Source: Phreatobacter cathodiphilus
GTDB lineage: Bacteria > Pseudomonadota > Alphaproteobacteria > Rhizobiales > Phreatobacteraceae
Direction of reading: 5' to 3'
NCBI RefSeq assembly: GCF_003008515.1
Contig: NZ_CP027668.1
Span: forward strand, 3,885,001-3,949,000
DNA: 64,000 nt
The notes beneath the pieces were generated by a model, which saw nothing but the letters and a program-made list of their open reading frames with translations, was not told where the DNA came from and searched no databases. The stretch's first letter is position 1, and every line of letters begins with the position of its first letter. The position numbers were made by a program, and so were the translations under genes. Positions 10,087-14,315 of this stretch are shown here, piece by piece.

Positions 10087-10175
10087 TCCGGAGGAATACG
10101 GGGGGCCCGTGCCGGTTCTTGCTTTGTTCCGGTGCCGCGGCTAGCCTCCATCCGTTGAGAGGGGGGAGGTTGCCC

Positions 10176-10883
10176 ATGGTCGCCCGCATGCTCGCCTGGT
10201 CCCGCCGCGCCGCGGCGTGGCTCGCCGCCGGCCCGCTGTTTCTCGGTCTCGCGGCAACGCCGCCGGCCCACGCCCAGGCCCGGCCGGGGGCGACGCCCGG
10301 CGAGTTCGACTTCTACGTCCTCGCCCTGTCCTGGTCGCCCTCCTTCTGCGAGGCCACGAGCGAGCGCACCTCGCGCTCCATGCAATGCGCCGGCGACCGT
10401 CCCTTCCATTTCGTCGTCCATGGCCTCTGGCCGCAGTTCCACCGCGGCTTCCCCGAATATTGCCAGGTGCCGGCCCCGGCGCTGGAGAACCGCACCGTCA
10501 GTTCCATGCTCGACATCATGCCGGCGCCCGGTCTCGTCCGGCACCAGTGGTCGAAGCATGGCACCTGTTCGGGCGCCCGCTCGGCGGGAGCCTATTTCGA
10601 GCAGGTGCGCCAGGCGCGGGCCAAGGTGCGCATCCCCGCGCAGTTCGAGAGCATCGCCGAGCCGCTCACCGTGACGCCCGACGAGGTGGAAGAGGCCTTC
10701 GTGAGGGCCAATCCCGGCCTCACCCGCGAGATGATCGCCGTGCAATGCGACCAGCGCCGGCTGCGCGAGGTGCGCATCTGCATCGGCCGCGACATGAACT
10801 TCACCGCCTGCGAGGAGATCGACCGGCGCGCCTGCCGCAGGGATCGTCTCGTCATGCCGCCGGCCCGTCCAGGCCGCAGCTGA
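10176..10883 (+). CDS. secreted ribonuclease T2 family protein
   Basis: A 235-residue exported RNase of the T2/RNase I family with a signal peptide over about residues 10-34. CAS-1 is HFVVHGLWPQ with His82, and CAS-2 is VRHQWSKHGTC with Lys127 and His128. In well-studied T2 enzymes the CAS-2 position before Trp is a catalytic Glu; here it is Gln124. Cysteines (C58, C71, C96, C131 and later ones) fit the disulfide pattern. It would cut RNA non-specifically in the periplasm via 2',3'-cyclic products. GGGGGGAGG before the ATG fixes the start. Confidence 0.92.
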   Translation: MVARMLAWSRRAAAWLAAGPLFLGLAATPPAHAQARPGATPGEFDFYVLALSWSPSFCEATSERTSRSMQCAGDRPFHFVVHGLWPQFHRGFPEYCQVPAPALENRTVSSMLDIMPAPGLVRHQWSKHGTCSGARSAGAYFEQVRQARAKVRIPAQFESIAEPLTVTPDEVEEAFVRANPGLTREMIAVQCDQRRLREVRICIGRDMNFTACEEIDRRACRRDRLVMPPARPGRS

Positions 10884-10903
10884 CCCTGTCCGGGTTCGCC
10901 GCC

Positions 10904-10944
10904 TTAACCTCCGGATCGGGGCGGGAACGAAACCCGTCCGAATC
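10904..10944 (+). repeat. 41-bp degenerate repeat, copy 1
   Basis: Pattern: TTAACCT at position 1, a GGATC/GGACC element ending at 14, GAACGAA at 22-28 and CCGAATC at 35-41. Copy 1 matches all blocks. The final GAATC is a GANTC (CcrM-type) site. Confidence 0.7.
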
Positions 10945-11371
10945 ACGTCCATCCGCCGGATCATTCTTTGTTCGGGCCTTGCGGGGCTCGTTTCGGCGAG
11001 GTCGCGCCGGGACGGCGGCCGGGCTTGGCTCCCGGAAGGGCTGTCGCGCCCTGAACCCTTAACCGCCGCGTGCCGTTTCGGAGCAGCGGTCGCGCGGCAT
11101 GATAGGCTGCAGCCGCCGTCGCGGGTCCGGATCCGGGTCGTCGCCGCGGTTCCCCGCGCTTCCCGCCCGTCCCGCGTCCGGCTCCTCGCGCCTGCCGTCC
11201 CGGCGGACGGGGCGACAATGTCCCGGAGGCGCCGGGCATCGCTGCCGACGGCCAGCCGCCCCTCCATGACACGTCCTGCCGGCCAGTCCGCTCGTCCTCG
11301 GGGAGGGGGCAACGCCGACGGGCCTGTGCCGGGCTTACAGCCCAGGGGAATGGGCGATCGCCGCCGGCCCG

Positions 11372-11412
11372 TTAACCTCGGGATCAACCGGCGAACGAAC
11401 CGGGACCGAATC
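11372..11412 (+). repeat. 41-bp degenerate repeat, copy 2
   Basis: Same block order and exactly the same internal spacing as the copy at 10904, with TTAACCT, GGGATC, GAACGAA and CCGAATC conserved and the spacers diverged. Confidence 0.7.
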
Positions 11413-11604
11413 GGGTCGCCGGCAATGTTCCGCGCCTGTCCTGCCGAATATCCGCCGGAACAGACGGTCTGCGGATCCGCCGTCGCATCAGCGCGGCGGC
11501 CGGGAGGCGCGGATCTTCACCGGAGCGTATCGAATCGGGGCAGGGCTGCGCCCTCACATCCTCTCGCCCGGGCCGGCGGCGTCGCGCGCCCGCGGATCGT
11601 CTCG

Positions 11605-11645
11605 TTAACCTGCGGACCCCAACAGGAACGAACAGCGTCCGAATC
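11605..11645 (+). repeat. 41-bp degenerate repeat, copy 3
   Basis: Third copy with TTAACCT, GCGGACC, GAACGAA and CCGAATC at the same offsets. Spacer bases differ from the other two copies, so only the blocks are kept. Confidence 0.7.
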
Positions 11646-11788
11646 GGAACCGCGGCCGCGTTGCCACTCTGTCCGGTGACGCAGGAGCGCAAACGCCATC
11701 CAACTGGCCGCGGCGACGGAACCCGGTCAGCGTCCGGGGTGAAGCGGGCGTTCGCGCGGTTAACCCTGTTGTCCCGCGCCGGGACGCC

Positions 11789-14179
11789 TCACGCCAGCGC
11801 CTTGAGATACCGGACCGGCCGTGCCCCGAGGATCGCCTGCGCCGCATGCAGGATGGCGTTGGTGTCGATGCCGTGGTGACGGTAGAGGTCGCCGACCGTG
11901 CCGGTCTGGCCGAAATGCTCGACGCCGAGCGACTTCACCCGATGGCCGTGCACCGCGCCGAGCCAGGCCAGCGTCGCCGGATGGCCATCCACCACGGTGA
12001 CGAGGCCGCAATCGCGGGTGAGGCCGCCGAGGAGGCGCTCCACATGGCTGGTGGCGTGGTGATGGCCGCGCTGGCGCGCCCGCTCGGCCGCCGTCCAGCC
12101 GGCATTGAGCCGGTCGGACGAGGTCACCGCGAGGACGCCGACGTCCCGGTGGCTCTCCGCCAGCAGGCCTGCGGCTGCGATCGCCTCCGGAGCGGTGGCG
12201 CCCATATAGGCGATGACGACGCCGGCATTGGCGCCGGGCCGCCGCAGCCAGTAGGCGCCGTTGATCACGTCGCTCGCCAGCGCCTCGTCCATGGCGCGCT
12301 GCGGCTGGTCGAGGGTGCGGGTCGACAGGCGCAGATAGACCGAGCCGCCCGTCTCGTCGCGCAGCCAGGTCTCCTCGTCCGGATCGCCCTCGCCGTCGCG
12401 CTGCATGTAGTCGAAGCCGAAGCGCATGATGGCGGCGAGCTCGTCGACGAAGGCGGGCTCGAAGGCGGCGAGCCCGTCCTGCGCCATACCGATCAGCGGC
12501 GTGGCGATGGACTGGTGGGCGCCGCCCTCGGGGGCGAGCGTCACGCCCGAGGGCGTCGCCACCAGCATGAACCGCGCGTCCTGGTAGCAGGCGTAGTTCA
12601 GGGCATCGAGGCCGCGCTGGATGAAGGGGTCGTAGAGCGTACCGACGGGCAGCAGCCGCTCGCCGTGGATGGAATGGGTGAGACCCAGCGCCGACAGGAG
12701 GATGAACAGGTTCATCTCGGCGATGCCGAGTTCGATGTGCTGGCCCTTCGGCGAGAAGTCCCAGGTGAAGGTGGAGGGGATCCGTTCCTGTTTGAACGTG
12801 TCCGCCAGCGCCTCGCGCGCGAACAGCCCGCGCCGGTTGACGAAGGCGCCGAGATTGGTCGAGACGGTGACGTCGGGCGAGCAGGTGACGATGCGCTCGG
12901 CGAAGGGCTCGCTGCCACGGGCGATCTCGTTGAGGATCAGGCCGAAGCCCTGCTGGGTCGACATGGCCGGCTGCATCGGCACGGCGAGCTTCGCCGGGAT
13001 CGGCAGCTTGGCGCCGTGGAAGCGGCGGCGGCCGCGTGCGGCGAAGGGCACGCCCTTCAGGAAGGTCTCCAGCGTCTTCGCCGGCACGGAGAGCCCCTCG
13101 AACCGGTCCCATTCATGGCCCGGCCGCACCTTCATGGCGGCGCGGAAGGCCTCCATCTGCGCCGGCGTCATCAGGCCGGCATGGTTGTCCTTGTGGCCCT
13201 GGAAGGGCAGGCCGAAGCCCTTGATCGTATAGGCGATGAAGCAGACCGGGCGGTCGTGGTCGATGCCCTCGAAGGCCTCGAGCAGCGAGGGCATGTCGTG
13301 GCCGGCGAGATTGGTCATCAGCCGGGCGAGTTCGGCGTCCGAGCGCCGGCCGATCAGGGCCGTCACCGCGCCCTGGTCGCCGATGTCGTCTTCCAGACGC
13401 TTCCGCCAGGCCGCTCCCCCCTGGTAGCAGAGCGCCGCGTAAAGCTGGTTCGGGCAGGTGTCGATCCACTGCCGCAGGGCCTCCCCGCCGGGCTCGGCGA
13501 AGGCCGCCTCCAGCAGCTTGCCATACTTCAGAATCACCACGTCCCAGCCGAAATTGCGGAACATGGCCTCGAAGCGCTCCCACAGCCCCTCGCGCACCAC
13601 GGCGTCGAGGCTCTGGCGGTTGTAGTCGACCACCCACCAGGTGTTGCGGAGACCGTGCTTCCAGCCCTCGATCAGCGCCTCGTAGATGTTGCCCTCGTCC
13701 ATCTCCGCGTCGCCGATCAGCGCCACCATGCGCCCTTCGGGTCGCTCCAGACCCCAGCCGTGGGCGCGCACATAGTCCTGGGCGAGGGACGAGAACAGCG
13801 TCTGCGCCACGCCGAGGCCGACCGAGCCGGTGGAGAAGTCCACGTCGTCGATGTCCTTGGTGCGCGAGGGATAGCTCTGTGCCCCCTTGAAGCCGCGGAA
13901 GGCCTCCAGCTTCTCCCGCGTCTGGTTGCCGAGGAGATACTGGATGGCGTGGAAGTTGGGGCTCGCATGCGGCTTCACCGCCACCCGGTCCTCCGGCCGC
14001 AGCACGGCGAAATAGAGCGCTGTCATGATGGTGGCGAGCGAGGCGGAGGAGGCCTGGTGGCCGCCGACCTTCAGCCCGTCCGCGTTGTCGCGCAGGTGGT
14101 TGGCGTTGTGGATCGTCCACGAGGCGAGCCAGAGAATCTTCTGCTCCAGCGCGGCGAGGGCGGCGAGACGGTCGGTCAT
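11789..14179 (-). CDS. transketolase-like 2-oxoacid dehydrogenase E1 (homodimeric AceE/MdeB type)
   Basis: A 796-residue thiamine-diphosphate enzyme resembling the homodimeric pyruvate dehydrogenase E1, but shorter than AceE (about 890). The ThDP motif is GDAEMDEGNIYEAL ... NTWWVVDYNRQSLD. The N-terminal HQASSASLATIMTALYF and the transketolase-type pyrimidine domain near residues 420-600 are present. The start MTDRLAALAALEQ (14179) is preferred to upstream ATGs. It is divergent from an Lrp-family gene, the layout known for Pseudomonas mdeB, whose product acts on 2-oxobutyrate; no mdeA homologue is next to it. The substrate is inferred only: pyruvate, 2-oxobutyrate or a sugar phosphate remain possible. 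Confidence 0.85.
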   Translation of the reverse strand: MTDRLAALAALEQKILWLASWTIHNANHLRDNADGLKVGGHQASSASLATIMTALYFAVLRPEDRVAVKPHASPNFHAIQYLLGNQTREKLEAFRGFKGAQSYPSRTKDIDDVDFSTGSVGLGVAQTLFSSLAQDYVRAHGWGLERPEGRMVALIGDAEMDEGNIYEALIEGWKHGLRNTWWVVDYNRQSLDAVVREGLWERFEAMFRNFGWDVVILKYGKLLEAAFAEPGGEALRQWIDTCPNQLYAALCYQGGAAWRKRLEDDIGDQGAVTALIGRRSDAELARLMTNLAGHDMPSLLEAFEGIDHDRPVCFIAYTIKGFGLPFQGHKDNHAGLMTPAQMEAFRAAMKVRPGHEWDRFEGLSVPAKTLETFLKGVPFAARGRRRFHGAKLPIPAKLAVPMQPAMSTQQGFGLILNEIARGSEPFAERIVTCSPDVTVSTNLGAFVNRRGLFAREALADTFKQERIPSTFTWDFSPKGQHIELGIAEMNLFILLSALGLTHSIHGERLLPVGTLYDPFIQRGLDALNYACYQDARFMLVATPSGVTLAPEGGAHQSIATPLIGMAQDGLAAFEPAFVDELAAIMRFGFDYMQRDGEGDPDEETWLRDETGGSVYLRLSTRTLDQPQRAMDEALASDVINGAYWLRRPGANAGVVIAYMGATAPEAIAAAGLLAESHRDVGVLAVTSSDRLNAGWTAAERARQRGHHHATSHVERLLGGLTRDCGLVTVVDGHPATLAWLGAVHGHRVKSLGVEHFGQTGTVGDLYRHHGIDTNAILHAAQAILGARPVRYLKALA

Positions 14180-14265
14180 GGCGGGCGGTGTCCGTTCAGG
14201 GTGCGTCATCATGCCGAAAGGCCCCGGCAGCCTCCTGCCAAAAAGCATCTGACAGGGGCGACACA

Positions 14266-14315
14266 ATGAGCATGATCTGCCAGGATGGCCTCCTATCCTG
14301 GCAGGTTCTGCTCAT
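14266..14315. promoter_or_regulatory. 50-bp composite palindrome, probable Lrp-family operator
   Basis: Two nested inverted repeats share one centre. The inner arms are TGCCAGGAT (14278) and ATCCTGGCA (ending 14303) with an 8-base spacer. The outer arms are ATGAGCA (14266) and TGCTCAT (ending 14315). It fills the gap between the E1 gene and the Lrp-type gene and overlaps the likely regulator start, so binding would repress lrp and could control the E1 gene. Confidence 0.75.

Follow-up and report, generated by a model that had tools for sequence, protein, structure and literature searches.

What kind of element are the three short repeats that lie together in one intergenic gap of a Phreatobacter chromosome, and what constrains them? 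In the window (the whole 64-kb stretch of DNA analyzed), a preliminary description had placed three copies of a 41-bp repeat at 10904, 11372, and 11605, with TTAACCT, a GGATC-like block, GAACGAA, and CCGAATC at the same offsets. All of this held, the second block reading GGA(T/C)C and each copy agreeing at 25 of 25 core positions. The array and its surroundings are laid out as follows.

10176..10883, plus strand: gene for an RNase T2 family protein (PF00445, E 3.2e-17), its 3′ end just upstream of copy 1
10884..11788, no strand: 905-bp intergenic gap with the array, delimited by the open reading frames and flanked on both sides by the 3′ ends of convergent genes
10904..10978, plus strand: element copy 1 (41-bp core 10904-10944, GAATC 10940-10944; 52.9 bits with model R2)
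11059..11064, plus strand: extra TTAACC in the gap, outside the scoring copies
11372..11453, plus strand: element copy 2 (41-bp core 11372-11412, GAATC 11408-11412; 44.8 bits with model R2)
11605..11677, plus strand: element copy 3 (41-bp core 11605-11645, GAATC 11641-11645; 41.2 bits with model R2)
11758..11765, no strand: GGTTAACC palindrome close to the end of the gap, found in the sequence
11789..14266, minus strand: transketolase-family gene (PF00456 and PF22613), which by recognition we take to be homodimeric pyruvate-dehydrogenase-E1-like, its 3′ end towards the array

Outside the three copies, the best match of model R2 in the window reached 10.1 bits. In the complete 4,494,445-bp genome, the TTAACCT..CCGAATC pattern is present at three places, all in this gap, and at none when read backwards. 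With a weight matrix containing no Phreatobacter row, the copies scored 48.7, 43.5, and 23.7 and the rest of the window at most -16.6, while six simulated 64-kb Markov sequences reached -20.8 at best. As this cross-genus matrix picks only the three copies and the simulated sequences score far lower, the feature is real and far above chance. Nor was the array missing from syntenic relatives, since six further genomes of Phreatobacter have two to four copies at the equivalent locus. In G007, a four-copy array follows the 3′ end of the equivalent E1 gene and is opposed by the 3′ end of an acyl-CoA dehydrogenase gene. Five of the six TTAACC/GGTTAA sites of the 64-kb window fall in the 905-bp gap, and the two of these that lie outside the copies (11059 and 11760) each stand 155 bp past a copy start (10904 and 11605, respectively).

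To define the element, we aligned 32 Phreatobacter elements first and then 83 drawn from the whole order (Hyphomicrobiales). The 41-bp core was real, but conservation ran ~30-45 bp further in the 3′ direction, giving a true element of ~75-86 bp. It consists of a TTAA, then three 11-bp direct repeats (consensus GGAACGAATCG) opposed by two inverted copies, and then a CnAnATnTnG dyad. The blocks conserved in the 83-element alignment are TTAA (1-4), GGAACG (10-15), GGAACGAA (21-28), G33, and CCGAATCGCTGAC (35-47), followed in the 3′ part by TTC (57-59), TTTGTTC (64-70), and the tail CnAnATnTnG (75-84). GAAC (22-25) and GAATC (37-41) were invariant in 83/83 elements, and the CGAATC block was present in 81 of the 83. 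Autocorrelation of the 83-element profile gave a single dominant and sharp period of 11 bp, and the strongest palindrome centres fell at 40.5, 46, and 51.5, which fits an arrangement of three direct 11-mers opposed by two inverted ones. The preliminary description had likened the leading TTAACC to a CtrA half-site (the full site being TTAA-N7-TTAA), a link that stays putative: the TTAA is conserved at 80-87% order-wide, the next two positions (CC) at only 52% and 49%, and there is no second TTAA at 11 bp. The blocks are conserved across genera and orders and the spacers are not, in line with the initial reading of constrained sites rather than recent duplication. The tail dyad (75-84) has the same conserved positions as the NrdR box core, which we take to be CwAtATaTwG; this may be a coincidence.

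The letters of the half-sites and their 11-bp spacing are also those of the LexA box of Alphaproteobacteria (GTTC-N7-GTTC), and a LexA site may overlap with GANTC (PMC7987155; PMC12700426), so that each element could be read as an SOS operator with paired GAAC-N7-GAAC and GTTC-N7-GTTC boxes. The element half-sites, however, are often imperfect: the left pair is perfect in 43 of the 83 elements, the right pair in 7, and both pairs in only 5, and it is on this half-site intactness that a LexA operator was rejected. Moreover, the most conserved block is CCGAATC, whose CGAATC (81/83) is dispensable for LexA and yet better conserved than the box pairs, and a cleaner LexA-type box stands nearby, upstream of the RNase T2 gene, so that we consider this reading very improbable. 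That nearby box (GTTCTTGCTTTGTTC, 10115-10129) has the GTTC-N7-GTTC form, precedes the start of the RNase T2 gene by ~50 bp, and is kept, as GTTCTTG[C/A/T]TT[T/C]GTTC, in each of the six Phreatobacter genomes inspected; the RNase T2 of the window may belong to the SOS regulon.

A structured non-coding RNA was also considered and rejected, as RNAalifold predicted 0 pairs for both 28 and 83 sequences and the element had no match in Rfam. With neither conserved pairing nor an Rfam match, the constraint most likely acts on the DNA.

The distribution of the element was then described at three levels. In the 12 Phreatobacter genomes, a sequence-only model separated true copies (at least 37.9 bits) from all else (at most 17.5 bits), and every genome carries one to six copies, that of the window five. 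Matches at E ≤ 0.001 were found in 294 of 397 genomes and 100 of 141 genera of the Hyphomicrobiales, these order-wide E-values being rough because the calibration was shortened, and a second model gave matches in 25 genomes of other alphaproteobacterial orders. None of the viral contigs matched the element pattern, which together with the one to six copies per genome speaks against a mobile or phage repeat. The presence of several copies per genome in variable places could still recall a neutral repeat family or chance similarity, but such a family is barely credible given the low copy number, a syntenic home that is fixed class-wide, invariant blocks with free spacers, the lack of any viral contig match, and a cross-genus match that persists under an independent matrix.

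That home lies directly upstream of a gene for a Suv3-type helicase, the element always being in the opposite orientation to it, in 43 of 51 loci of the order, which are the best matches and hence a biased sample. In other orders, at least seven loci share this suv3-upstream placement and opposite orientation, while the neighbour on the other side changes. The helicase of Phreatobacter matches PF22527, and in Sinorhizobium and Rhizobium the operon runs in the order helicase, S4 RNA-binding protein, ferredoxin, CarD; the Rhizobium suv3 gap contains three copies ~200 bp apart. In Phreatobacter, the suv3 gap (L050 7741-8099; G000:C1 ~3718.7-3719.1 kb) lies between the 3′ end of a PAS/hybrid histidine kinase gene and suv3. 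Suv3 is still present in 19 of the 20 order genomes where the first model found no element, which means that the element can be lost; the suv3 upstream regions of this element-less set contained a clear diverged copy in only two cases and a partial copy in two. The suv3-locus copy is 32-46 kb from the parS cluster in three Phreatobacter genomes (G000, G007, and G008); in ten other genomes, complete or nearly so, its distance to parS is 0.11-0.93 Mb. On these distances, a parS or oriC identity was rejected. Around suv3 in Phreatobacter, GC skew is weak.

The array in the window is a satellite of this suv3-locus element in Phreatobacter. Arrays are found between convergent 3′ ends (the window and G007) or, in genome G057, adjoining a DUF3108 gene with no suv3 beside it; such positions speak against an ordinary promoter function for these copies, so that the element is independent of promoter position.

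The 41-bp core of each copy ends in GAATC, and the preliminary description had connected it with CcrM methylation of GANTC. In 49 suv3-proximal loci, GANTC occurred at 35.8 per kb inside the element and 13.3 per kb in the next ~200 bp (86-300), against 1.0-1.3 per kb in the flanks. Seven control pentamers of the same composition showed no such enrichment at these loci, and the density beyond the element was still 13.2 per kb once second copies were excluded. Outside the element, N was A 72, G 48, C 36, and T 27 times, the variation expected of methylation sites, while in the central GAATC N is always A, where a pure methylation site would permit variation. Neighbouring GANTC spacings favour whole helical turns (p ~0.002-0.008, a statistic inflated by the relatedness of the sequences). 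This phasing is clearest in Phreatobacter, with spacings of 21, 21, 21, and 31 bp, where as many as 14 GANTC fall within 300 bp of the suv3 gap, most of them two to three helical turns apart, the densest cluster of the 200 kb around. Compared with Ensifer genomes, which contain 0.9-1.83 GANTC per kb with a ~2-fold intergenic excess (PMC8725594), the suv3 cluster is an outlier. Three suv3-proximal copies (L100, L104, and L130) have just one GANTC in 330 bp. Support for the proposed CcrM link is stronger than first described at the suv3 locus, where GANTC is 10- to 35-fold enriched in or beside the element and partly in helical phase, and the window copies keep the core with only one GANTC each. 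A methylation linkage of the element is probable. GcrA is present in all the genomes checked, whether or not an element was detected in them, and so does not discriminate the carriers; the Pfam search for the GcrA family also gave a match above the cut-off in the Sulfolobus acidocaldarius control genome. We infer that the element may take part in cell-cycle control, as had been suggested.

Array spacing was regular as well. Successive copies, in unrelated lineages and loci, stood a median of 235 bp apart (IQR 222-258, n = 49), with 41 of the 49 distances within 180-300 bp. In the window, the start-to-start distances are 468 bp (2 x 234) and then 233 bp, and the full-model scan saw no residual copy at ~11138, where a 234-bp spacing predicts one. 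The DNA between copies differs in both length and content among congeneric species (468/233, 267, 561, and 416 bp), and a regular ~235-bp spacing despite this changing DNA suggests a spacing constraint between neighbouring putative complexes. The regularity would also suit a promoter for a small RNA, the arrays being tandem ~235-bp sRNA genes, and so would the intergenic position, the fixed polarity, and the conserved AT-rich 3′ tail. This is quite unlikely in our view, because the spacers vary in length and content between congeneric species, no Rfam match or conserved pairing was found, and the window gap lacks a sigma-70-like promoter and has no more terminators than chance would give.

The explanation that we favour, with about even confidence, is that the element is a composite DNA site on which a single oligomeric DNA-binding protein lands, with a link to methylation at the suv3 locus. 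The five 11-bp half-sites of each element, three direct GGAACGAATCG-type ones facing two inverted ones, would be occupied on about one face of the helix, the upstream TTAA and the small AT dyad downstream completing the element. Elements ~235 bp apart would be joined into a single nucleoprotein complex, which at the ancestral suv3-upstream locus would sit within the ~300-bp cluster of CcrM (GANTC) sites. Binding or release of this complex might then depend on the methylation state and, through it, on when the replication fork passes. We infer the protein, its oligomeric or cooperative assembly, its sensing of methylation, and any link with replication or suv3 expression from the sequence features described above.

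The main rival is a plain operator. OmpR-type response regulators bind direct repeats of 10-11 bp, and a conserved transcription factor of this or another type could control suv3 and a few lineage-specific targets, GANTC being merely part of its recognition sequence. This would account for the 11-bp direct repeats, the class-wide position upstream of suv3, the A fixed at N of the central GAATC, and those dispersed copies that lie upstream of genes such as leuA (G007) or an MFS gene. It fits poorly with the arrays between convergent 3′ ends or beside DUF3108 without suv3, and with a GANTC cluster that reaches ~200 bp past the element and varies in its N there. Of the conserved OmpR-type motifs, that of CenR (TGA-N8-TGA, PMC9275681) was compared and did not match. 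We regard a plain operator as possible but somewhat unlikely.

Known systems resemble parts of the composite landing site that we prefer. At the E. coli oriC, GATC, the target of an orphan DNA adenine methylase tied to the cell cycle, forms a dense cluster that tends to whole helical turns and is read by SeqA. The suv3 cluster is similarly dense and tends to whole turns, but it uses GANTC and CcrM and lies away from the origin, 0.11-0.93 Mb from parS in ten of the complete genomes checked; to our knowledge, no SeqA-type reader is known for the element. The RctB iterons of Vibrio chromosome II are repeats of 11 to 12 bp, each with a methylase site, in intergenic arrays. The element shares the 11-bp class of repeat, the methylase site, and the intergenic arrays, but its sequence and methylase differ, and no initiator gene or replication origin was found alongside. 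An iteron array with its initiator was accordingly rejected, the neighbours being suv3 or various other genes. As in the GcrA/CcrM promoters of Caulobacter, GANTC lies in conserved intergenic DNA and GcrA is present in all genomes checked; unlike them, the element is an 86-bp composite with 11-bp repeats and is often outside promoter position. A more far-reaching and, we think, unlikely version is that of a class-wide alphaproteobacterial chromosomal control site, at which a dedicated protein would bind the 11-bp repeats and read the methylation of the helically phased GANTC cluster. It would be the missing GANTC counterpart of replication timing of the SeqA/oriC or iteron/crtS type, with satellite arrays added in lineages such as Phreatobacter.

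The element is apparently undescribed so far, although it may have been described outside the open-access literature. It does not appear in the open-access papers searched on CcrM, GcrA, and hypomethylation, Suv3 (including its promoter), LexA, CenR, ChvI, GANTC clusters, and rhizobial sRNAs. The word helicase is absent from the main texts of the CcrM/GcrA literature examined, and a text search of the literature with the element sequence returned only unrelated subjects. A one-locus, class-wide non-coding element with a 10- to 35-fold enrichment in CcrM sites suggests that a DNA-binding protein awaits description, and offers a single 300-bp target for testing methylation-dependent control in common laboratory strains. 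It also brings sites of cell-cycle methylation to the front of the rhizobial operon for the Suv3 helicase, the S4 RNA-binding protein, the ferredoxin, and the CarD regulator.

Phreatobacter carries a third copy between an EamA transporter gene and leuA (L051 6762-6833; L065 ~1501-1575). In G007, rpsT lies ~1 kb and dnaA ~2.5 kb away from this copy. The genome of the window also has an element copy at C1:3039398.
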